Below, piece after piece: positions 12,662-35,329 of a stretch of 41,803 nt of DNA. The DNA comes from Allorhizocola rhizosphaerae (GTDB taxonomy: Bacteria; Actinomycetota; Actinomycetes; Mycobacteriales; Micromonosporaceae): the NCBI RefSeq assembly GCF_003426775.1, contig NZ_QJUG01000056.1, forward strand, positions 1 to 41,803, written 5' to 3'. A model generated the notes under the pieces. It searched no databases, was not told the DNA's origin, and was given only the letters and a program-made list of their open reading frames with translations. The translations under genes and the position numbers were made by a program. The number at the start of each line of letters is the position of its first letter. Within the stretch, counting starts at the first letter, position 1.

Positions 12662-14983
12662 ATGTCATCGCAGGCGGGGCTGGACCGGCCCGATCCCAGT
12701 GCGGTCAACGACGCCGGAGCGCTGCTCCAGGCCTTGCGCGAGCTGCGCATAGCCGCCGGCAACCCGTCGCTGGCGGTGCTCAGCCGGCGCACCGGCATCC
12801 CACGCACGACCCTGCACGACGCGCTCAGCCTCAAGCGGATCACCCTGCCCGCGTGGGAGCTCGTGCAGAAGATCACGCGCGCCTGCGATTGCGCGCATGA
12901 CGAGGTCGCGCAGTGGGGAGAGGCGTGGCGGCGGGCTGCTTCCCCGCCCGCCCCACCACGCCTCGACCGGGTCGCGCCGCCGCAACAGCTGCCCGCAGCG
13001 CCGCGCCTGTTCACCGGCCGCGACAGCCCTCTGGCCGAGCTCGACAGCGCGCTGCACGCGCAGGCCGACGGGGGCACGGTCGTGGTCACCGCGATCGGCG
13101 GGCTCGGCGGCGTCGGCAAGACGTGGCTCGCGGTCCGGTGGGCGCACGACAATCTCGACCGCTTCCCCGACGGCCAGCTCTACGTGGACCTGCGCGGCTT
13201 CGACCCGCTTGACGAGCCAATGCCGCCGGCCGTCGCCATCCGGTCCTTTTTGGACGCTCTCGGGGTCGAGCACGCCGCGATCCCGGCCGACCCGCAGGCG
13301 CAGATCGGGCTCTACCGCACGATGGTCGCGGGCCGGCGCCTGCTCCTGCTGCTGGACAACGCTCGCGACACGGCCCAGGTGACCCCGCTGCTGCCCGGCA
13401 CGCCGACCGCCACGGTCCTGGTCACCAGCCGCAACCAGCTGACCGGCCTGGTGACCCGGCACGGCGCGCTTTCGGTCGCGCTCGATGTGCTGCCCGAGGC
13501 CGAGTCCCGTGCGCTGCTCAAGCGATACGTCGGGCCCGACCGGCTGGAAACCGGTGCCACCGACCGGATTCTGCGTTTGTGTGGCGGGCTTCCGCTGGCG
13601 CTGTCCATCGTGGGCGCGCGGGCCGCCGCGCATCCCGGCTTCCCGCTGTCGGCCATCGCCGACGAGCTGGAGTCGGCCCGGCTCGACGCGCTCGGCACGG
13701 GCGATCTGGCCGCGGACGTGCGGGCGGTCTTCGCCACGTCGGTCGCCGCGCTCGACGAGGCCCCGGCCCGGCTGTTCCGGATGCTCGGGCTCACGCCCGG
13801 CCAGGAGGTCGGCGCGGGCGCCGTCGCCGCGTTGATGGACCTGCCCGCCGAGCGCGTGCTCGCCACGCTGCGCGTGCTGACCGGCGCGCATCTGCTCACC
13901 GAGCATCAGCCCGGCCGGTTCCGGATGCACGATCTGGTCCGGTTGTACGCGACCGAGACCGCCGAGCCGTCTTCGCCGTCCGATGAGCCCGCACTGCGCC
14001 GGTTGGTCGACTTCTACCTGCAGACCGCACACCACGGCGAGTCCGCATTGGACGTCCACAAGCGACCAGGCAGCCTACCCCTGTCCGAGCCCGTTGCCGG
14101 GCATCGCGCCCTGCGGCTGGACTCCTCGGCGCAGGCCATGGCATGGTTCGGCGCCGAGCGGGAGGCGCTCAGCGCGGTCCTGCTGCTGGCCGTGGAGCGC
14201 GGCTGGCACGTCAAGGCGATGGAGCTTGCCCGGACGCTGCACGGCTTCTACGCCCGCTCGGGGGAGCACGTCGGCAGCGTGATGGTCGACCGCACCGGTC
14301 TGCAAGCCGCGCTCGCGGTCGGCGACGAGCACGGCTGCGCCATCGCCGAGCGCAACCTCGGCCGGACCCTGGCCCAGCTGCAACGGCACGACGAGGCGAT
14401 GTGCCATCTGGGCCGGGCGCTGATGAAGTTCATGGAGCTCGGCGACATCCGCGCGCAGGCCTCCACTCACCACATGATCGGCTATGCGCTCGGCAGGCGC
14501 GGCGAGCACCGGCAGGCGCTCATCCACGCGACCCGGTCGCTGGAGATGTTCCAGCAGCTGGGCGACACGCGGTGGACCGCCGCCATGCTCAACGCCATCG
14601 GCTGGTCGCACGCCAACCTGGGCGAGCTGGATCTGGCGTGGGAGACGTGCGGGCGGGCGCTGGCCCTGTGCCGCGAGCACGAGTTCCTCGCGGAGGAGCC
14701 GTTCGTCCTGCACAGCATCGGCTACATCCACCTGCGCGCGGGGCGTTACGCCAAGGCTCTGTTCTATCTGGAAGACGCGCTTGCCCGGGGGCGGGCGCGA
14801 GCCGTGACCGTGGTCGAGGCGACGTGCCTTTCGAGCATCGGCGACGCGCATCTGGCGATGGGCGACCGGGCGGCCGCCAAGGCGGCGTGGTGCGAGGCGC
14901 TCAACCTGCTGCGCCCGCAGCACCGCAGCGAGGAGATCCGGCAGGTCGAGCAGAAGTTGAAGCGGGTACTCCAGCGGGAGTAG
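12662..14983 (+). CDS. XRE-HTH / NB-ARC / TPR regulator (STAND, AfsR-like)
   Basis: A 773-residue signal-transduction ATPase of the STAND class. Residues about 20-85 are an XRE-like helix-turn-helix (LSRRTGIPRTTLHDAL). The NB-ARC core shows Walker A GGLGGVGKT (146-154), Walker B LLLLLDNAR (227-235), the GLPL motif (309-312) and an MHD motif in RMHDLVRLYA (422-424), the full set known from AfsR-like regulators and plant NLRs. The C-terminal 250 residues are tetratricopeptide repeats, probably the ligand-sensing region. The protein is expected to be a soluble transcription regulator switched by nucleotide state. Start ATG 12662 has a GGGGAGG Shine-Dalgarno site. It diverges from the DUF6351 gene, with 106 bp between them, and precedes a kinase/regulator pair that it may act with (inference). 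Confidence 0.92.
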   Translation: MSSQAGLDRPDPSAVNDAGALLQALRELRIAAGNPSLAVLSRRTGIPRTTLHDALSLKRITLPAWELVQKITRACDCAHDEVAQWGEAWRRAASPPAPPRLDRVAPPQQLPAAPRLFTGRDSPLAELDSALHAQADGGTVVVTAIGGLGGVGKTWLAVRWAHDNLDRFPDGQLYVDLRGFDPLDEPMPPAVAIRSFLDALGVEHAAIPADPQAQIGLYRTMVAGRRLLLLLDNARDTAQVTPLLPGTPTATVLVTSRNQLTGLVTRHGALSVALDVLPEAESRALLKRYVGPDRLETGATDRILRLCGGLPLALSIVGARAAAHPGFPLSAIADELESARLDALGTGDLAADVRAVFATSVAALDEAPARLFRMLGLTPGQEVGAGAVAALMDLPAERVLATLRVLTGAHLLTEHQPGRFRMHDLVRLYATETAEPSSPSDEPALRRLVDFYLQTAHHGESALDVHKRPGSLPLSEPVAGHRALRLDSSAQAMAWFGAEREALSAVLLLAVERGWHVKAMELARTLHGFYARSGEHVGSVMVDRTGLQAALAVGDEHGCAIAERNLGRTLAQLQRHDEAMCHLGRALMKFMELGDIRAQASTHHMIGYALGRRGEHRQALIHATRSLEMFQQLGDTRWTAAMLNAIGWSHANLGELDLAWETCGRALALCREHEFLAEEPFVLHSIGYIHLRAGRYAKALFYLEDALARGRARAVTVVEATCLSSIGDAHLAMGDRAAAKAAWCEALNLLRPQHRSEEIRQVEQKLKRVLQRE

Positions 14984-17611: not shown

Positions 17612-19489
17612 TTAGCGCAGGCCGTGGCGGCGGGCGGCCTTGATGAGCAGCTCCGGGTCGTCGGTGATGATGCCGTCCACGCCGAGGGCGATCAGGCGGT
17701 GCATGACGGCCTCGTCGTTGACCGTGTATGGCACCACCTTCAGGCGATATCGCTCCTGCAGCCGGTCGACGGTGGGGCCGTGGAAGTAGGCGGGGTTCTC
17801 GCGCAGGTACCAGTCCGGTGAGCTGACCGTGCCCTGGTTGGGGTCGTGCACCTGCCAGTTGGACGAGACGGTGTCCGCTTTGGACTCGCGCATCAGCTTG
17901 CCCAGATCCCTGTGCTTCCACCAGTCGAGGTTGGCGGTCCACGGGCTCTTGACGCTGGGGTCGCCGTAAACGGCTTGCAGCGAGCACTCGTCGGCCGGCG
18001 AGGCGCATTCTGTCGGACCGTACTGCCACACTAGGGCCACGGTGTGGATACGGGGGTTGAGCTTCTTGGCCAGTGCGATGGTGCGCCAGTCGAAGGACTG
18101 GATGGTGACGCGGTCGGTCATGTGGGCGCGCTGGATCGCCTCGATCAGCTTGCGGGTGAAGGTGTCCGGCCCGGCTGTGTCGGGTGCCAGAGGAGAGATC
18201 TTTGTTTCTATGTTGAGCCGCTTATTGCTGGGCTTGACGAGATCGAGCACCTCGGCCAGGGTCGGCATGCGCTCGCCTTCGCCGCAGTCGAGGGTCTGGA
18301 TCTGGGCCAGGATCAGGTCCTTGATGGGTGTGCCGGCGAAGCCTCCTTGACACTTGGCCGGGTCGATCCGCCGCTCGTGCGAGACGACCAGGTGCCCGTC
18401 GCGGGTCAGGCCCGTGTCAAGCTCGATCGTGGAGATGTCCGGGTTGGACAGTGCTTTGCGGAAGGTCTTGAGCGTGTTCTCCGGCTTGCCGCCACCGCGA
18501 TGGGCCTGCACGTCAAACGGCGACTCGTAACCGCGCGGCGGGTTCTTCACGAGCGTGCGCAGGCGGTCGGGATAGTCGGTGATCAGGCCGTCGATGCCGT
18601 CGGCGATAAGCTTGCGCATGGTCGGGATGTCGTTGACCGTCCAGGGGATCACCTTGATGCCGTTGCGGTGTGCGTGCCGGACCATGTCGGCGGTCACGTA
18701 GGGGACGTAGCTCGGGTCGTTGACCGTGCCGTGCTGCGGGAAGCCGTGCACGGGCGAAAAGGCGGTGACACCAAAGGTTTTGACGGCCGCGATCGGGTCG
18801 CCGCCGAAGTCGTCGATGTCCAGCCCGCCCAGCCACGGCGACGCACCGGGTTGGCCGACCTGGAGGAACGTGTAGTTGGTGAGGGCGATGCGTTCTATTT
18901 GAGGCGCGACCTCGCGCCAGCGCATGAGCGCGCCCCAGTCGAACGACTGGATGGTGACCTGCCGCCCGATCCGGGCCCGCTCGATCTCGGCGTTGACGAC
19001 CTGCACGAACTGCTCACGCGGCGCGGTCTCGTGCGGCGCACCGGCCTCCACCTTGGTCTCGATGTTCAGCTTGACGTCGCGGGCGTGGTAGCGCTTGACG
19101 AGGTCGAAAACCTCGGACAGCAGGGGCATCGGCGCGCCCGGTACGAGCTGCTGGCCGGGCACGACGGTCTGCGAGCCGCAGTCCATCGTGCGCACCTGGG
19201 CCAGGGTCAGATCCTTGATGTATCGGCCCCCGTAGGCGCCCAGGCACTTGGCCGGATTGATCCGACGATCGTGGGTGACAACGGCGTGCCCGTCGAGCGT
19301 GATCTGCACGTCGAGTTCGAGCGTGTCGACGCCGAGGCGCAGGGCGTTGCCGAAGGCGGCGAGCGTGTTTTCGACCCGCAACCCGAGCCCGCCGCGATGG
19401 GCCTGGACGTCCAGGTCGCGTGGCTCGTGGTGCACGGGGGTCAGCGGGCTCGCCAGCATGGTGAGGGCGAGAAGTGCGGCATTCCACAT
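17612..19489 (-). CDS. Exported glycerophosphodiester phosphodiesterase with two GDPD domains
   Basis: A 625-residue protein built from two complete GDPD domains that hydrolyse glycerophosphodiesters to glycerol-3-phosphate and an alcohol. Domain 1 (about 27-300) has QAHRGG...ENT, ELDVQITLDGH and VVTHD. Domain 2 (about 315-620) has QAHRGGGKPENT, ELDTGLTRDGH and VVSHE. Both keep the catalytic His pair and metal-binding acids. A short hydrophobic N-terminus (residues 3-18) suggests export. Both domains share NPAKC/DPAKC and further paired cysteines, consistent with disulfides and internal duplication. ATG 19489 is used as start; TTG 19498 three codons upstream is nearly as good. An AT-richer, rare-codon patch lies in domain 2 near 18195-18230. 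The gene precedes no same-strand partner. Confidence 0.93.
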   Translation of the reverse strand: MWNAALLALTMLASPLTPVHHEPRDLDVQAHRGGLGLRVENTLAAFGNALRLGVDTLELDVQITLDGHAVVTHDRRINPAKCLGAYGGRYIKDLTLAQVRTMDCGSQTVVPGQQLVPGAPMPLLSEVFDLVKRYHARDVKLNIETKVEAGAPHETAPREQFVQVVNAEIERARIGRQVTIQSFDWGALMRWREVAPQIERIALTNYTFLQVGQPGASPWLGGLDIDDFGGDPIAAVKTFGVTAFSPVHGFPQHGTVNDPSYVPYVTADMVRHAHRNGIKVIPWTVNDIPTMRKLIADGIDGLITDYPDRLRTLVKNPPRGYESPFDVQAHRGGGKPENTLKTFRKALSNPDISTIELDTGLTRDGHLVVSHERRIDPAKCQGGFAGTPIKDLILAQIQTLDCGEGERMPTLAEVLDLVKPSNKRLNIETKISPLAPDTAGPDTFTRKLIEAIQRAHMTDRVTIQSFDWRTIALAKKLNPRIHTVALVWQYGPTECASPADECSLQAVYGDPSVKSPWTANLDWWKHRDLGKLMRESKADTVSSNWQVHDPNQGTVSSPDWYLRENPAYFHGPTVDRLQERYRLKVVPYTVNDEAVMHRLIALGVDGIITDDPELLIKAARRHGLR

Positions 19490-19519
19490 GTCTTCCAACG
19501 CTTCTCGCCCCAGGTTGCG

Positions 19520-19680
19520 TCAAGCCAAATGGCGCCCGAACCAGTCGATGACTTTTTGGTACGCCTGGGCGGCCGCCTCGGCGTGGAAGCGTTGCCCGGT
19601 GTCGTTGAAGAAGGCGTGGTTCGCGCCCGGGAAGGTGACGATCTCGTGGGTGAGCCCGGCCTTTTGCAGGGCCTGCCTTC
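19520..19680 (-). pseudogene. C-terminal remnant of a dienelactone hydrolase-family protein
   Basis: On the minus strand about 53 codons read QALQKAGLTHEIVTFPGANH, then AFFNDTGQRF and a final helix ending WFGRHLA before the TGA at 19522-19520. This is the C-terminal catalytic-His segment of a dienelactone hydrolase. An in-frame stop and loss of similarity occur just upstream, near 19680, so the rest of the gene (Asp and Cys/Ser nucleophile) has been deleted. No start codon or ribosome-binding site serves this fragment. Confidence 0.8.
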
Positions 19681-19787
19681 ACCCGCTTCCATCGATGGAC
19701 CCCAATCAGATAAAAAGGTACTCCTGATCGGCCGGCTCGGTGGCGATGGCCGGTTGCCACGTCGAGTCCTGGTCGGCGGCTTGCGAT

Positions 19788-19812
19788 GTTTGCCGCGGGC
19801 CCGGCGGGGTAT
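19788..19812 (+). promoter_or_regulatory. Sigma-B-type (general stress) promoter for MEDS-STAS gene
   Basis: GTTT (19788-19791), a 15-bp spacer and GGGTAT (19807-19812) match the general-stress sigma factor consensus, GTTT...GGGTAT in Bacillus and GNNT-N14-16-GGGTAC/T in Streptomyces. The start codon lies 52 bp after the -10, giving a short leader. This fits the gene's product, a partner-switching regulator of the type that controls such sigma factors. Confidence 0.6.
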
Positions 19813-19864
19813 AAAAACCGCTCACATGCTGTGATTTTTGAGCGTTAGGGATTGAGATAGCGGA

Positions 19865-20773
19865 ATGGCGTGGGTGAACCTGCCGGAACCTCGACCGGCA
19901 GGTTCCGCCGGTAGAACGGGCGGTGTGCGTGGCCTCGAGCCGGGCGATCATGTGAGTTTGGTGATTACCGACGACGAGAGCTGGCTGGTGGTGGCGGCTG
20001 ATTACGTTTCGGACGGCCTGCAGCTACGCCACAAGATCATTTTATGTACGGACATGCTGCGCCCGGAGGCTTTGATCGCGGGGCTGGAATACCTTGGGGT
20101 CGCGAATGTCTGGCAGGCGCAGGCCGACGGCCAGTTGGAGGTCATGACCGCCGAGCAGAGCTATCTGGCGGCGGGCCGGTTCGACCCGGAAGAGACGATC
20201 ACCGCATGGGCCGGGGAGATAGACATGGCCCGGCGCCAGGGTTATGCGGCGTTGCGGATGGTCGGGGACATGGGATGGGCGCTACGCCCGGCTGCCGGTG
20301 TCGAGCCGCTGGCGCGATATGAGGTCCAGATAAATCGCGTGTTCGCGCAGGGGCACGCGATGGCGGTATGCCTGTATGACCGGCGGCTGTTCACCACGTC
20401 CGAGCTTGCTGCGTTGGTGGCGGCACATCCGGCGACGGCCACCTGCCCGCCGCCGTCCGATTGGGAGCCGACCCTGCGGATGCGATACCTGGAGGGTCAG
20501 GTTGGCGCCCGCTTGTCCGGCGAGGTGGATGTGTCCAATCGGCAGGCGGTCGCCGCGATGCTCAGCCATCTCCTCGATCACTTGGCCGCCGCGGATGCCG
20601 AGGTCGTGCTGGATCTGTCGGAGCTGCGGCTGATCGACGGGGCGACCGCGGCACTACTGGTTCGCACCGTGCAGAAGCGGGCGAACCTGCGCCTGGTGGG
20701 CCGGTCTCAGCCGGTGGCGGCGCTGATGGATCTGGTCAGCGGCGCGACGCTGGCAGCGGTGATCGATACGTGA
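19865..20773 (+). CDS. MEDS-STAS signalling protein (anti-sigma-antagonist-like)
   Basis: A 302-residue cytoplasmic protein. Residues about 22-190 are a MEDS domain (GLEPGDHVSLVITDDESW opening, RLDP-type RFDPEETI, then RMVGDMGWAL), the sensory domain first defined in the methylotroph regulator DcmR. Residues 205-300 are a STAS domain (LSGEVDVSNR...VVLDLSELRLID). In typical antagonists the phosphorylated serine follows Asp in D-S-S-G; here the loop is D258-G-A-T261, so the usual serine is missing, although Thr261 is nearby. Inferred role: bind and release a GHKL anti-sigma partner in response to a ligand sensed by MEDS. It converges with the MEDS-GHKL/MEDS-STAS pair and is separated from them by a palindromic hairpin. 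Start ATG 19865 lies behind a sigma-B-type promoter. Confidence 0.88.
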   Translation: MAWVNLPEPRPAGSAGRTGGVRGLEPGDHVSLVITDDESWLVVAADYVSDGLQLRHKIILCTDMLRPEALIAGLEYLGVANVWQAQADGQLEVMTAEQSYLAAGRFDPEETITAWAGEIDMARRQGYAALRMVGDMGWALRPAAGVEPLARYEVQINRVFAQGHAMAVCLYDRRLFTTSELAALVAAHPATATCPPPSDWEPTLRMRYLEGQVGARLSGEVDVSNRQAVAAMLSHLLDHLAAADAEVVLDLSELRLIDGATAALLVRTVQKRANLRLVGRSQPVAALMDLVSGATLAAVIDT

Positions 20774-20790
20774 GTGGGCCGCGGCCCACT
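20773..20790. terminator. Perfect 18-bp palindrome between convergent signalling genes
   Basis: AGTGGGCCGCGGCCCACT begins on the last base of the MEDS-STAS stop codon. It can form a strong GC hairpin on either strand and lies between convergent genes ending at 20773 and 20918, so a bidirectional transcription terminator is likely. No U-tract follows, as usual in actinomycetes. Confidence 0.55.
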
Positions 20791-20917
20791 GCCGGGCCGG
20801 CCGATCCGATGGCCGGCTACCTTCGGCTCAGCTGTGTGGCCAGGTCACGGCCAAAACCAGCCGCGCACCGGGGTGCACCCCGACCACAAGCCGTCGCCAA
20901 ACAGGCCCAGGCCCGGA

Positions 20918-21880
20918 CTAGAGGTAGGCGTGCAGGCGGACCGTAGTGCCGCCGGGGCCGGTGCGCACCTGCACGAGGTCGCACAACTGGTTGGCGAGCC
21001 ACAGCCCGCGTCCGCCGGCCTGTTGCAGGGTGGGCTCCTGACGGCCGAGCAGCGGCGGCGCGTCGAGCTGTCCTTCGTCGGTGACGTCGCACAGCACGGT
21101 GTGGCCGTCGACCCACAGGTGCACGGTGGCGGTTTGCCCGCCGTGCGTCAGGGCGTTGGAGGCGATTTCGCTGACCGCCACGGTGAAGCTGTCGGCAGAG
21201 TCGGCGGGGAGCCCGGCCCGCACGGCGTGGGTGCGGGCGGCTTGCCTGATCGCTGCAAGGGTCTCCCAGCCCGGCCCGGCGGTGTAACGGCTCGCGCCGG
21301 GTGGAGGCGGAGGCAGCGGCTGGTCCCATCTCGCCGGGGCTGGATGTTCATGCAGGTATGCGCCGCTGGAACTGCGGCTGCCGTGGCGGACAAGGACCGG
21401 GTGGCTGCGCTGTGCCTCGGCGATGACATCGGCGGGCAGGGCCACCGTGTCATATGGGCACAGCAGCGTCCAGGCTGGACCATCGTCGAAGGCGACGTTG
21501 AGCAGCGTCTCGTGGCCTTGGCACTCGATCAGCTCCGCAGAGCTGCGCCCGGCCCAGATCGGCTCGCCGATGCCGCGCACAGGCGAGCCAGGGCGCAGAT
21601 TTTCGTCGGTGAACCTCTTCCAGGCTGGGATGATCCGTGCCGGGTTGCGGCCGACATTGGCCATGTCGGCGAACTGCACGCGGGCGGCGTCGTTGCCCAG
21701 TTCCGCTCGCAGGGCCTCAATCTTGGCAGCGTCGACGACAACCAGCGCCGGTTCACCCGCCTCGATGCCTTCACGGAGGAAACGCACGGTCCCGGCGAGA
21801 AATTGGGCCAGGTCTTCATAGAACATGGCTTCGTGCCGGAACACCTGCTTGGCTGCCGGCGAGCTGACCGTGCGACTCAT
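20918..21880 (-). CDS. MEDS-GHKL anti-sigma-factor-like kinase
   Basis: A 320-residue cytoplasmic protein. The N-terminal 185 residues are a MEDS domain (HEAMFYEDLAQFL opening, WAGRSSAELIECQGHETLLN and LLCPYD segments). After a proline-rich linker (about 195-213) comes a GHKL/HATPase_c_2 domain of the RsbW type: N-box SEIASNALTHGG, CDVTDEG and G-box GGRGLWLANQLCD. No His phospho-acceptor domain is present, so it is an anti-sigma-type kinase rather than a two-component kinase. Its start overlaps the stop of the MEDS-STAS gene by 4 bp (21877-21880), so a kinase and its likely antagonist are made in step. MEDS-HATPase fusions recur in actinomycetes; the ligand is unknown. Confidence 0.88.
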   Translation of the reverse strand: MSRTVSSPAAKQVFRHEAMFYEDLAQFLAGTVRFLREGIEAGEPALVVVDAAKIEALRAELGNDAARVQFADMANVGRNPARIIPAWKRFTDENLRPGSPVRGIGEPIWAGRSSAELIECQGHETLLNVAFDDGPAWTLLCPYDTVALPADVIAEAQRSHPVLVRHGSRSSSGAYLHEHPAPARWDQPLPPPPPGASRYTAGPGWETLAAIRQAARTHAVRAGLPADSADSFTVAVSEIASNALTHGGQTATVHLWVDGHTVLCDVTDEGQLDAPPLLGRQEPTLQQAGGRGLWLANQLCDLVQVRTGPGGTTVRLHAYL

Positions 21881-22764
21881 GCGGCATCACCGTGCCCAGC
21901 CGGCCGTGCGTCTCCGGCCGCGTGCCTCGATGTGGAGTCGCCGAACTTTACGTAGGGTTGAAGCTCATGCAGGCCAAGCACCTGCCAGCAGCGGCGCACG
22001 ATGCCCGAGGCGTCCTGGATGAGCATCGGATGCGGGGCCGGGGTGTCCGCCAGGCGCGAGAGCGCGGCGATCCCAGCCGCCGAGATGAACGCCAGCCCCG
22101 CGCAGCCGACCGTGCGGACCGGACCGGCGGCCGCGGCGGTCTGCAACGCCCGCTCGAAGGCAACGATGGCAGCGAGGTCGACCTGTCCGCTGATCTGCCA
22201 GGCGTCGTCATCGACATACCACATGCGGAACAACGGTGGAGGGTGGCCGGAGCCGGCATGCTGGGGGTGGACCGCTGCCGCCTCGGTCACACCGAGCCCG
22301 AACGAGCCGGGCCGGTAAGCGCACACCACCGTCACACCGAGTTCGGCGACGGCCTTGTCCAAGACCAGCTCGAACGCGGCCACTTGCTCAGGCGTCGGTG
22401 GATGAGCCAGCATCCAATCCATGTCTGCGACCAGCCGGATGCCGGTGTAACCCTCGCGGCGGGCAATGGAGGTCTGCTCGGCGAACATCGACAGCATCAC
22501 CTCGGGCACCAGCGGCCCATCGTTGAGGAAGTCCCGTGCCGGGTCGGCGAAGGTTATCGGCAACCCATTGCCGGCAGCGTGGCGGTCGGTGGCAGCGGCG
22601 GGCAAGAAGCGGAACAGCTTCTGCCCGGCGGCGAGTCCTTCGGCCAGGCACCGCTGTGCGGCGGCCTCGAACTCGTCTTCGGAACCGATGACATAGCACA
22701 CGTGGTCGCCAGGGGCGAGCCCGGTAAGACCCGCGAGCTCTTGTTGCTGACGGACGGCATGCAC
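21877..22764 (-). CDS. MEDS-STAS signalling protein, serine-less STAS
   Basis: A 295-residue protein with MEDS domain (GLAPGDHVCYVIGSEDEF at 15-32, ARREGYTGIRLVADMDW at 101-117) and C-terminal STAS domain (about 185-280). The STAS switch loop reads FISAAG (226-231): Ala229 sits where the phosphorylated serine would be and Ser228 replaces the preceding Asp. Phosphorylation by a GHKL partner in the usual way is therefore impossible, implying constitutive binding or ligand-controlled release. First gene of a two-gene operon with the MEDS-GHKL protein. Start GTG 22764: TAAAAT lies six bases upstream and the next in-frame ATG is much further in. The last 15 residues are low-complexity Ala/Gly/His/Pro. 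Confidence 0.87.
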   Translation of the reverse strand: MHAVRQQQELAGLTGLAPGDHVCYVIGSEDEFEAAAQRCLAEGLAAGQKLFRFLPAAATDRHAAGNGLPITFADPARDFLNDGPLVPEVMLSMFAEQTSIARREGYTGIRLVADMDWMLAHPPTPEQVAAFELVLDKAVAELGVTVVCAYRPGSFGLGVTEAAAVHPQHAGSGHPPPLFRMWYVDDDAWQISGQVDLAAIVAFERALQTAAAAGPVRTVGCAGLAFISAAGIAALSRLADTPAPHPMLIQDASGIVRRCWQVLGLHELQPYVKFGDSTSRHAAGDARPAGHGDAA

Positions 22765-22776
22765 AGCGGCATTTTA
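22765..22776 (-). promoter_or_regulatory. Predicted leaderless promoter of MEDS-STAS/MEDS-GHKL operon
   Basis: On the minus strand TAAAAT (22776-22771) stands six bases before GTG 22764. It is embedded in GGGGTAAAAT, so a sigma-B-like GGGTAA reading of the same site is also possible. No ribosome-binding site is present. Confidence 0.55.
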
Positions 22777-22869
22777 CCCCGGGGGCGGTCGGCGCACGCG
22801 TCTGGGCGGCCTCCGGCCCCGCACACCAGCAGCGGCCGGGTGATGCGGGCAGGCTTCGCAACGCCGGCC

Positions 22870-22894
22870 GCGTGAACCTGGGCCAGGCGGGTAC
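22870..22894 (+). promoter_or_regulatory. Possible sigma-B-type promoter upstream of GHKL gene
   Basis: GCGT (22870-22873), 15 bp, GGGTAC (22889-22894) fits the loose Streptomyces sigma-B consensus GNNT-N14-16-GGGTAC. The -35 part has little information, so support rests mainly on GGGTAC and the product downstream at 23022. Confidence 0.3.
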
Positions 22895-23021
22895 AGGTAG
22901 AGGTATACGAGGAAGATGTGCGCAGGCGTCCCCGGTGCCGTTAACTGGAGACTACTGCCACGCTTCCCCCTGGGCTGTGCCGTCACACCCCGCCGCCACA
23001 GCATGATCGGAACTTGAGGTT

Positions 23022-23468
23022 ATGGATAGTGAGCCGCTTACTGAACCACCGCCCGACGCGCACTGCGTAGAGTATGCCGTTCCTAACGATCTGGCCGTGC
23101 TCCGCGACATCGTGGGGCGGCACGCACAGGCTGCCGGGCTGTCCGAAGACAAGACCGCCGCCCTGATGTTGGCGGTCAATGAGTTGGCCAGCAACACGAT
23201 CGAACACACCGATGACGGCGGGTCGCTGCGCATCTGGATCCACGGCGGCGCCCTCGTGTGCCAAATCGAGGACCGAGGACGGCTGGAGGCCGCCATCGGA
23301 CGCTCGATGCCATCAGAGCCTGGCAGCCGCGGCTACGGCCTGCCGCTGGTCACCCGCCTGACCGACCACGCCGTCTGCCTCAGCGGCCCGGCAGGTACCC
23401 GCTGGCAGTTGCGCATGCGGCTCAAGGGCTTTCGGCCGGGCCGGCTCGACGGCGCGCAACACCACTGA
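23022..23468 (+). CDS. Stand-alone GHKL anti-sigma regulatory factor (RsbW-like)
   Basis: A 148-residue HATPase_c_2 protein. The N-box is AVNELASNTIEHTDDGG (about 56-72), followed by CQIEDRG and a G-box SRGYGLPLVTRLTDH. There is no membrane or sensor domain. Proteins of this class bind a sigma factor or a STAS antagonist and phosphorylate the latter. It diverges from the MEDS-STAS/MEDS-GHKL operon with 257 bp between them, and so completes a set of two STAS and two GHKL proteins in under 4 kb. Start ATG 23022 has a GAGG Shine-Dalgarno site at normal distance. No sigma factor gene is nearby, so its target lies elsewhere. Confidence 0.88.
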   Translation: MDSEPLTEPPPDAHCVEYAVPNDLAVLRDIVGRHAQAAGLSEDKTAALMLAVNELASNTIEHTDDGGSLRIWIHGGALVCQIEDRGRLEAAIGRSMPSEPGSRGYGLPLVTRLTDHAVCLSGPAGTRWQLRMRLKGFRPGRLDGAQHH

Positions 23469-23549
23469 ACTCAACCGACGGCTCCGTAGGCTTGCCGTGG
23501 CGCAGGTGCTACTGCTGCGTCGCCCCCATCGTTTGCCGGTCGGTTGCGG

Positions 23550-24143
23550 TCATCGGCTGCCGGAAGTGGCCTGTCCGCAAGGGATCCGGCGCGCGATGCC
23601 CGGATAGTCGAGCACCAGGCCCACATCGTCGTAGACGAGCCGGCACGAAAAATCGAAGGCGAGCGAATGGTAGTCGTACTCGAGACTGTCCACACGCGAG
23701 TATTCCTGCTCCAGGCGCATCACGGTCAGGTCGGGCACGCGCACATACACCGCCGGGGCGGAGGACTGCTGCCCGAGCGCCAGCCCGAGCCTGCGCACCG
23801 GGAACGTGTTGGTCATGGCCGACGCCTCCAGATCGACGTCGAAACACCCGTCCAGATCAGGCCGGTGAACGCCGTCGATCAGCCAGCCGTGCTCCCAGGA
23901 CAGCGCGATGTATTTCCGCCCCGCCGCCGACATGCACGACACGAGCGCCGCGCGGGTGGTCCAGGAGGGATCCAGATCGATGCGGTACTCGACCGACCAC
24001 GCGACGCCGGCCTCGACCGCGCTGGTGCTGCCCTCGATCCGCCAGCCCCCGCCGCCGGCGCGCCGGAAATACGTGACCTCGCATCCGATGCGCGCTTCGC
24101 GATGTTCCCAAGCTGCCTGTCGGGGTGGTTCCGCGAACTGCAT
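23550..24143 (-). CDS. Putative glycolipid-binding protein (PF06475-like)
   Basis: A 197-residue protein that follows the Glycolipid_bind family pattern along its whole length. Visible are GCEVTYFRR near the N-terminus, WSVEYRIDLDPSWTTR, WLIDGVHRPDLDGCFDVDLEASAMTN (family: DGC.DVDL..T..TNTLPIRR), FPVRRLGLALG, VRVPDLTV, and the terminal YDDVGLVLDYPGIARR. No signal peptide, so cytoplasmic. The family name derives from a Pseudomonas protein; the biochemical role in actinomycetes is not established. Start ATG 24143 has TAAATT exactly six bases upstream, indicating a leaderless mRNA. It diverges from mscL. Confidence 0.85.
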   Translation of the reverse strand: MQFAEPPRQAAWEHREARIGCEVTYFRRAGGGGWRIEGSTSAVEAGVAWSVEYRIDLDPSWTTRAALVSCMSAAGRKYIALSWEHGWLIDGVHRPDLDGCFDVDLEASAMTNTFPVRRLGLALGQQSSAPAVYVRVPDLTVMRLEQEYSRVDSLEYDYHSLAFDFSCRLVYDDVGLVLDYPGIARRIPCGQATSGSR

Positions 24144-24155
24144 ACGATCAATTTA
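24144..24155 (-). promoter_or_regulatory. Predicted leaderless promoter of glycolipid-binding-like gene
   Basis: On the minus strand TAAATT (24155-24150) precedes ATG 24143 by six bases. Confidence 0.5.
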
Positions 24156-24286
24156 CCGCCGCTGACGGCCCCGTTTTTCATCGCGAAGCGGTGAAAACAC
24201 CTACTGAGCGTCCGAACCGCCTGACCTGACGTTTTTCGCGCGGGTTTGGGTCGGACGGCTGCGCCGCCGGCCCAACCCGCTGCCGA

Positions 24287-24298
24287 TAAAGTAACGGG
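24287..24298 (+). promoter_or_regulatory. Predicted leaderless promoter of mscL
   Basis: TAAAGT (24287-24292) precedes GTG 24299 by six bases. Just upstream, 24240-24279 can fold into an imperfect hairpin around CGGGTT...AACCCG in the divergent intergenic region; its role is unclear. Confidence 0.5.
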
Positions 24299-24742
24299 GT
24301 GCTAAAGGGGTTCAAGGATTTCATCATGCGGGGCAATGTCGTCGATCTCGCGGTCGGCGTGACGATTGGTGCCGCTTTCACCGCGGTCGTGACTCAGTTC
24401 AGCAAGTCGTTCCTGGAGCCGTTGATCAAGGCGATCGGCGCGAACAGCACGACGCTTGCGGGCACGATTACCTTGCCAGGCAAGGATAATTACATCACCT
24501 GGGGCGAATTCGTCGGGACGCTGATCGGCTTCCTGATGACCGCCGCCGTGGTCTACTTCCTCGTGGTCCTGCCGATGAACAAGCTTGCCGAGCGCCGCAA
24601 GAAGGGCATGGAGCCGGAGTCGGCCGCACCCAACGAGGAGATCCTGCTGCTGCGCGAGATCCGGGACGCGCTGCTCGCCGAGCGGGCCGCCGCCGATAAG
24701 GCGCCTGCGCAGCGCGTGGCCGGGCAGACTGAGTCGAGGTAG
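24299..24742 (+). CDS. mscL: Large-conductance mechanosensitive channel MscL
   Basis: A 147-residue MscL that opens as a homopentamer on membrane tension to release solutes during hypo-osmotic shock. The N-terminus MLKGFKDFIMRGNVVDLAVG is the conserved S1 helix and start of TM1; TM1 continues VTIGAAFTAVVTQF. The periplasmic loop includes a GTITLPGKDNYITWG segment. TM2 is FVGTLIGFLMTAAVVYFLVV. The cytoplasmic C-terminal helix EEILLLREIRDALL is the usual bundle. Length is normal for the family, with a short Ala-rich tail. Start is GTG 24299, supported both by homology and by a -10 hexamer six bases upstream. Confidence 0.97.
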   Translation: MLKGFKDFIMRGNVVDLAVGVTIGAAFTAVVTQFSKSFLEPLIKAIGANSTTLAGTITLPGKDNYITWGEFVGTLIGFLMTAAVVYFLVVLPMNKLAERRKKGMEPESAAPNEEILLLREIRDALLAERAAADKAPAQRVAGQTESR

Positions 24743-34945: not shown

Positions 34946-35329
34946 TTACCCCTCGCCCCGGCGGGCAAACCAGCGCCGGACGAACTCCTGCGGATCGAGC
35001 GTCTTGAGCACGACCGGTGGGCCGTCCAGGTAGCCGCGCTGGGATTTGACGATCCGCTCGTTGAGCGCGTCGACCAACCGGCGGACCTCCGATTCGGTGC
35101 GGCACCGGGCAATCGCGTCGTCGACGTCCTCAACGTCGCGGCGGAGCAACAACGTCGCGGGGACGGCCCCGGTGATCTGCTCGCGCTGGATCCACTGCTT
35201 GAGCCACCAGTCCTCGCGGTATCCCTCACCCGCGCCCGGCAGCGGCTTGCCGGCCCCGGGCAGGTTGTCGAACTCGCCGCGCTCCTGCGCCTCGCGGATC
35301 GCCTTATCCACTGGGGATTCTTGAGACAT
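34946..35329 (-). CDS. DUF1992 family protein
   Basis: A 127-residue DUF1992 protein, the conserved domain of the DnaJ homologue DNAJC28. Signature features are the N-terminal AIREAQERGEFDNLPGAGKPL and the WWLKQWIQRE segment followed by a helical, charged second half (LLLRRDVEDVDDAI...SEVRRLVDALNERI). The last residues are Arg-rich. No J-domain is present. Function unknown. Start ATG 35329 lies two bases after the Eis-like acetyltransferase stop, so the two are very probably translationally coupled. Confidence 0.9.
   Translation of the reverse strand: MSQESPVDKAIREAQERGEFDNLPGAGKPLPGAGEGYREDWWLKQWIQREQITGAVPATLLLRRDVEDVDDAIARCRTESEVRRLVDALNERIVKSQRGYLDGPPVVLKTLDPQEFVRRWFARRGEG

Follow-up and report, generated by a model that had tools for sequence, protein, structure and literature searches.

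The contig NZ_QJUG01000056.1 of the actinobacterium Allorhizocola rhizosphaerae (family Micromonosporaceae), whose 41,803 nucleotides (nt) were analyzed as a whole and are referred to below as the window, carries between positions 19788 and 23468 four genes, A to D, for two MEDS-STAS proteins, one MEDS-GHKL protein and one stand-alone GHKL protein. This locus raises the question of (i) whether the four genes form a self-contained, ligand-gated partner-switching circuit, as an earlier note on this DNA had supposed; (ii) how such proteins would be switched; and (iii) which sigma factor, if any, they would serve. We determined that the C-B gene pair is, judged by its sequence, an example of a widespread two-gene cassette, and that the residue on which STAS antagonists are usually phosphorylated is missing from A, from C and from most of their relatives. 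The reading that we favor, to which we would give an even chance of being correct, is that these proteins are MEDS-gated, largely phosphorylation-independent antagonists for a remote SigB/F-type sigma factor, with feedback onto A, and that the island is not one machine. Its direct basis consists of the domains, the pairing, the motif losses and a promoter motif, from which we infer the interactions, the ligand gating, the promoter activity and the sigma target.

The features on which the argument draws are:

19788-19812, + strand: SigB/F-type promoter motif GTTT-N15-GGGTAT, with 52 nt between it and the A start codon
19865-20773, + strand: gene A, MEDS-STAS protein of 302 amino acids, an unpaired (orphan) protein from the STAS side of MEDS pairs
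20636-20647, + strand: codons for D258-G-A-T in A, located by alignment at the place of the canonical D-S-S/T-G
20918-21880, - strand: gene B, MEDS-GHKL protein of 320 amino acids, RsbA_anti_sig family, with N-box, G1 and G2 residues intact
21877-21880, - strand: ATGA, the 4-nt overlap of the C stop codon with the B start codon, read from the sequence
21877-22764, - strand: gene C, MEDS-STAS protein of 295 amino acids, first gene of the C-B operon
22072-22083, - strand: codons for S-A-A-G in C, located by alignment at the place of the canonical D-S-S/T-G, with both Asp and Ser lost
23022-23468, + strand: gene D, stand-alone GHKL protein of 148 amino acids, from a group usually found beside single-domain STAS genes

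The C-B pair and its cassette type

Pfam and NCBIfam matches bear out the earlier note in that the four proteins are real and that three of them share the MEDS domain. The MEDS scores, all above the Pfam cut-off of 29.8 bits, are 137.6 bits for A (E 4e-40), 114.5 bits for B (E 6e-33) and 77.4 bits for C (E 1e-21), and HATPase_c_2 was matched by B (E 1.5e-19) and by D (E 3e-15). STAS_2 scores 30.6 bits in A against a cut-off of 29.2, and 25.5 bits (E 1.5e-5), under that cut-off, in C; the STAS domain of C was also picked up by a custom STAS profile, which lends it no independent support since the profile was seeded with A and C. B matches the NCBIfam model RsbA_anti_sig (NF041045) over its full length (347.7 bits, cut-off 210), and A, C and D each match half of this model only, with scores under the cut-off. 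The parts are, then, known families. The genome (G000; 8.8 Mb in 493 contigs, the window being contig C446) contains eight MEDS matches, seven of them over the cut-off; three lie within 2.8 kb at the island, and this clustering is more than chance.

The ATGA overlap likely couples the translation of B to that of C. That one STAS/GHKL pair is coupled had also been claimed by the earlier note, and the pair proved to recur when gene neighbourhoods in relatives were searched with profiles built on the window proteins (in this search set the genome is the sole representative of its genus). Two cassette types were found: type 1, in which a MEDS-STAS gene is followed by a MEDS-GHKL gene (31 distinct cases, C-B included), and type 2, in which it is followed by a stand-alone GHKL gene (eight cases); 13 MEDS-STAS proteins, among them one at a contig end (L044), are orphans. 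The pair finder sought GHKL genes only downstream of the STAS gene and on the same strand, and no GHKL gene was noticed just upstream of a MEDS-STAS gene in the neighbourhood row lists. From the STAS stop codon to the first MEDS residue of the partner, type 1 cassettes measure 2-66 nt (median about 30), so that the two genes abut or overlap. Three copies were dropped (L082, L086 and L097, equal to L028, L034 and L032), and a fourth (L123, equal to L083) was removed in the distinct counts only and kept in the pair, phosphosite, GHKL-residue and spacing tables.

As the regions were mostly picked for paired MEDS genes, the 31 pairs are not a frequency. In unselected material, a pair was present at half of the named loci found by sequence (8 of 16), and 22 of the 74 MEDS matches in 40 relatives sit in such pairs (table count). 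Across the 31 pairs, the distances between one set of partners follow those between the other (r 0.78; none of 2000 shuffles as high, best shuffle 0.20), a correlation for part of which common descent accounts.

A separate observation concerns L043:6015-6988, near the end of contig C16 of G000, where the MEDS half and the GHKL half are encoded in two different frames that overlap, as if this MEDS-GHKL gene were frameshifted or misassembled.

Phosphoacceptor loss and the MEDS sensor

RsbV and SpoIIAA are phosphorylated on the serine of a D-S-S/T-G motif. This serine is absent from A and C; C, like its relative in genome G109, lacks the Asp as well. Among 53 distinct MEDS-STAS proteins, the aligned phosphosite is Ser in 4, Thr in 6, Ala in 15, Val in 15, His in 9 and Gly in 4, whereas the STAS-only domains aligned with them have Ser there in 23 of 24 cases (21 of these 24 controls come from beside D-like GHKL genes); within the genome itself, seven of nine STAS-only proteins have Ser. 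Fisher's test of MEDS-STAS against STAS-only proteins gives 2e-14, although the rows, being related to one another, are not independent. Split by class, 3 of 32 type 1, 1 of 8 type 2 and 6 of 13 orphan proteins have Ser or Thr.

The ATP site has fared differently from this residue. All 31 paired MEDS-GHKL rows (30 distinct) have the E and N of the N-box, the D and G of G1 and two glycines of G2, and the same core residues are found in all eight type 2 proteins, in B and in D, the last two of which contain the motifs N-box E/N, G1 D-x-G and G2 G-x-G (the GHKL rows of L119, together with L018, L023 and L025-L027, are outside the residue table and the GHKL tree). The earlier note had described two antagonist-like proteins and one kinase-like protein; with the phosphoacceptor gone from A and C the classic kinase/antagonist picture becomes doubtful, and their sequences make classic phospho-switching unlikely for most MEDS-STAS proteins, A and C included. 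As the kinase-like half is largely kept and its usual substrate residue is not, we infer that MEDS-STAS proteins are gated by their own MEDS domains and that any kinase activity would be aimed at another STAS protein. A precedent is the S59A/T171A stressosome, for which signalling without these phosphosites is reported (PMC3944199).

In ordinary RsbV/RsbW switching, B and D would phosphorylate and release STAS proteins, with one of them holding a sigma factor, and another phosphosite would replace the Ser. The intact GHKL core residues, the resemblance of the B model to SpoIIAB and RsbW complexes in the PDB, and the STAS-only frames bearing D/N-S-S/T-G near relatives of D are what such a system would display. 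However, 43 of the 53 MEDS-STAS proteins have neither Ser nor Thr at the site, and C has lost the Asp as well; we consider this explanation unlikely.

What the MEDS domain may be was assessed with AlphaFold2 models of A and B (predicted local distance difference test 88.7 and 92.8, respectively), which were searched against PDB structures. In the A model, the MEDS part matches FlaH (4yds; Z 15.5, root-mean-square deviation 3.8, 178 residues aligned) and KaiC (7s65; Z 14.8, root-mean-square deviation 2.9, 174 residues aligned), the Foldseek and VIA-align rows for A covering mainly residues 15-219 and barely the STAS part; the best PDB matches of the GHKL part of B are SpoIIAB and RsbW chains. 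A search of residues 1-190 in 48 MEDS-STAS and 34 MEDS-GHKL proteins for the Walker A P-loop pattern gave no match, and MEDS therefore resembles a RecA-type fold turned sensor: the models predict a KaiC/RecA-like fold without a P-loop. Four residues are invariant in each subfamily, H29, E153, C169 and H188 in MEDS-STAS proteins (A numbering; 48 of 48) and H16, E124, C141 and H160 in MEDS-GHKL proteins (B numbering; 34 of 34). A, B and C all retain these H, E, C and H residues in the same order, and by our reading of the surrounding motifs, rather than by alignment, the two sets would be equivalent. A quick tree, the supports of which were not examined, nevertheless separates the MEDS domains of the GHKL proteins from the ones in STAS proteins; both observations bear on the suggestion of the earlier note that A, B and C may respond to one ligand. 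The MEDS ligand predicted in the literature is a simple hydrocarbon derivative.

Under the MEDS-gated reading, B would be an ATP-binding protein of the RsbW/SpoIIAB kind equipped with a MEDS sensor, and C, translated together with it, would be its antagonist and bring a MEDS domain of its own. With no phosphoacceptor in C, what gates the binding of C to B would most likely be the state of the MEDS domains, set by a ligand, and not phosphorylation of C; once freed, the ATPase domain of B would act in trans, the target being either a canonical STAS protein or a sigma factor.

The four genes in relatives

To relatives of C, of which at most eight candidates were scored per genome, belongs the closest counterpart of C-B found, in genome G109, where the C relative is 54% identical and the B relative begins after 3 nt. 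No GHKL frame is present in the 3.1 kb upstream of the C relative in G109, whose contig ends before the place of A; D is thus unlinked there. Remoter C relatives occur in G022 (36%), G406 (34%) and G593 (33%): no paired MEDS-GHKL gene was found for the one in G022, a MEDS-GHKL gene follows about 1.4 kb on along the same strand in G406, and the one in G593 is paired.

The best relatives of A are 45-48% identical to it and include proteins with an adjacent MEDS-GHKL gene (in G006, G062 and G082); A has no such partner beside it. D falls into a clade of 27 members (support 98/92), the other 26 of which are stand-alone GHKL proteins, picked as best matches of D, a selection that favors their grouping. 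A single-domain STAS frame lies within about 1.5 kb at 21 of the 26 loci of these clade mates, and no STAS-only gene that could be a partner of D was found in the window. The sister group of the D clade, with weaker support (91/83), consists of 13 MEDS-GHKL rows, including partners of A-like proteins.

Since A and D relate to different cassette types, the island joins members of different cassette types. By sequence kinship it would be an assembly of different lineages, perhaps serving one remote sigma factor, rather than a four-part machine; D would represent a different lineage of RsbW-like proteins, lacking a STAS-only neighbour in the window, and A would be an antagonist of the same build as C without a neighbouring partner. 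The self-contained four-gene circuit of the earlier note is accordingly not supported: only C-B recurs, A is an orphan and D is of another lineage. The nearest thing to the same four-gene set elsewhere is found in G009 (L029:5144-13256), where the same four architectures lie on one strand within 8.1 kb, in the order type 2 MEDS-STAS gene (its MEDS part interrupted by a stop codon), intact GHKL gene, 4.8 kb of other sequence, and type 1 pair. These are two separate pairs, and the stand-alone GHKL protein falls in the type 2 group, not in that of D; no other set of four architectures was present among the matches listed or in the neighbourhoods surveyed.

That the four genes are nevertheless one functional unit assembled in this lineage, with A as the antagonist for D and C for B, would explain why A and D flank C-B on the same strand and why D is without a STAS-only gene in the window, and G009 offers a compact grouping of the same architectures. 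Yet the cassette types that A and D resemble are not the same, a SigB/F-type motif is missing at D, the G009 genes are two pairs with a stand-alone GHKL protein from another group, and such a set was seen nowhere else among those matches and neighbourhoods, so that this explanation seems to us very improbable.

Three other origins were considered and rejected. A and D are not a split type 2 pair interrupted by C-B, as the type 2 STAS and GHKL proteins group without A or D; the notion that D is a MEDS-GHKL protein minus its MEDS domain, and the partner of A, is unsupported, D being in the clade of stand-alone GHKL proteins; and a mobile-element origin is not indicated by positions 19500-24300, where the only repeat is a weak inverted one, tandem and direct repeats being absent. 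A scan for sigma-70 promoters and terminators yielded nothing over chance.

Other kinds of protein are encoded by the neighbouring genes that were scanned, namely a GDPD protein, a glycolipid-binding protein, MscL and the two members of a two-component pair. Elsewhere in the window, positions 17612-19498 encode a 628-amino-acid protein with repeated GDPD (glycerophosphodiester phosphodiesterase) matches, and positions 12662-14983 an NB-ARC and TPR protein, which we take to be a signal-transducing NTPase of the STAND type.

A SigB/F-type motif, the candidate sigma factor and their meaning

No sigma gene accompanies the island, as the earlier note had observed: 21 matches to the SigBFG model were found genome-wide and none on C446. 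The first base of the motif before A, 19788, is also the start of the stretch singled out in that note, the text of which makes no mention of a promoter. The motif resembles published consensus sequences of the SigB/F type. The SigB consensus of B. subtilis is GTTTAA-N12-14-GGG(A/T)A(A/T), and a GTTT motif is likewise described for Streptomyces SigF/H/N (PMC8346170); the mycobacterial SigF consensus is GGWWT-N16-17-GGGTAY (PMC7693655), with a spacer slightly longer than that before A. The pattern GTTTN14-17GGGTA occurs twice in the window against 0.14 expected, and genome-wide there are 69 strict sites (ending in GGGTAY) against 25 for the reversed pattern. The second occurrence in the window, at 34947-34970 on the - strand, is absent from the strict sites.

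Five of 26 switch-type frames, against 0.04 expected, have a strict site within 400 nt upstream of the first domain, the 26 being the MEDS, STAS and GHKL frames in the 19 stretches of this genome that were examined. They are A, an A-like orphan (C112), an unpaired MEDS-GHKL gene (C56), a STAS-only gene (C447) and a GHKL gene on a 3.4-kb contig (C342); for the genes on C112 and C342, transcription from the site would mean an almost leaderless start.

Only one SigBFG match, on C484, is over the cut-off (234), the weaker matches including scores of 141, 136 and 111 bits. It is the last gene of a run (L193:3622-5733) whose first gene we read, from its own sequence, as YbjQ-like, and in which a GHKL gene with an N-terminal extension precedes the sigma gene; by eye this extension looks like a degenerate STAS domain, and Pfam found none there. 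A strict site precedes the first gene of the run, if its start is an internal Met. With the motif at both A and this sigma run, A is a candidate regulon member of the sigma factor that it may help to control, and the motif suggests that A would act as a feedback element of the SigB/F-type sigma factor on C484.

PMC7693655 describes a comparable arrangement in Mycobacterium smegmatis, where RsbW3, a homologue of RsbW, has a SigF promoter and positive feedback was proposed. As A may be, RsbW3 is part of a switch and has in front of it a GTTT-Nx-GGGTA promoter for the sigma factor served; RsbW3 is a GHKL protein, however, whereas A is a MEDS-STAS antagonist behind a putative promoter.

A switch without a sigma target, in which the MEDS-GHKL and MEDS-STAS proteins control another output such as an enzyme, a histidine kinase or a stressosome-like scaffold, would fit the finding that the single SigBFG match over the cut-off has its own upstream GHKL gene, and the genome offers many other possible partners (39 HATPase_c_2 matches, 20 over the cut-off, histidine kinases included, and 11 STAS matches). 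Such a switch is improbable in our view, as NCBI names the family of B an anti-sigma factor and SigB/F-type motifs precede several switch-type genes.

Several points weigh against the favored reading of MEDS-gated antagonists for a remote SigB/F-type sigma factor, besides the share of common descent in the partner-distance correlation. On the side of phosphorylation, Ser or Thr is kept in 10 of the 53 MEDS-STAS proteins and other residues could serve; just 21 of the 31 paired MEDS-GHKL rows keep the Thr of the third ATP-site motif, and the G1 residues are missing in one of seven unpaired MEDS-GHKL proteins. With regard to the promoter, the motif was chosen after it had been sighted at A, although without A there are still four frames against about 0.04 expected (P about 1e-7); the frame scan of this genome found no SigB/F-type motif at the C-B operon or at D; and the motif is present in two of four MEDS-STAS upstream regions of this genome but in none of 49 from other genomes, so that we rejected it as a family trait (2 of 53 regions, both from this genome). 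Finally, the three weaker SigBFG matches could be further targets.

RsbV/RsbW and SpoIIAA/SpoIIAB are likewise pairs of a STAS antagonist and a GHKL anti-sigma factor/kinase; the present proteins differ from them in carrying MEDS on both partners, in having no sigma gene alongside, and in the absence of the phosphoacceptor Ser from A, C and most relatives. In the Bacillus stressosome (RsbR/RsbS-RsbT), the sensor is to our knowledge not a MEDS domain. There too, sensor-STAS proteins hold a GHKL kinase, and signalling partly persists without the phosphosites, according to PMC3944199, yet the wild type has them; for the present proteins nothing points to a large complex. The name of NF041045, 'anti-sigma factor RsbA family regulatory protein', which B fits over its full length, shows no tested function; S. 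coelicolor rsbA has been described as an RsbW homologue (PMC8346170). The sensory MEDS domain is shared with DcmR and EtnR2, and a search of the texts on these (PMC8784404, PMC11507031) found no mention of STAS; the latter describes MEDS joined to a DNA-binding domain and cites a 2005 hypothesis that MEDS is a negative regulator of SigB in actinobacteria. In the literature searched we found no description of a cassette with MEDS on both sides, of family-wide phosphoacceptor loss or of SigB/F-type motifs at unpaired members.

More tentatively, and with less confidence than we place in the favored reading itself, we suggest that these proteins represent a large, little-studied class of switches in which both partners carry a P-loop-less, KaiC-like MEDS domain, ligand alone throws the switch and the STAS partner gave up phosphorylation; the unpaired members of this genome would have left operon linkage and be joined by the SigB/F-type promoters of the sigma factor on which they feed back. 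In the usual description of partner switching, the switch is thrown by phosphorylation of the STAS antagonist. If our reading is true, a widespread family whose kinase-like partners are intact, and which for the most part has no phosphoacceptor, would run the same binding architecture by direct ligand sensing, and would offer a simple two-protein system for studying sigma factor release, for which the promoter motif makes the sigma factor on C484 a directly testable target.

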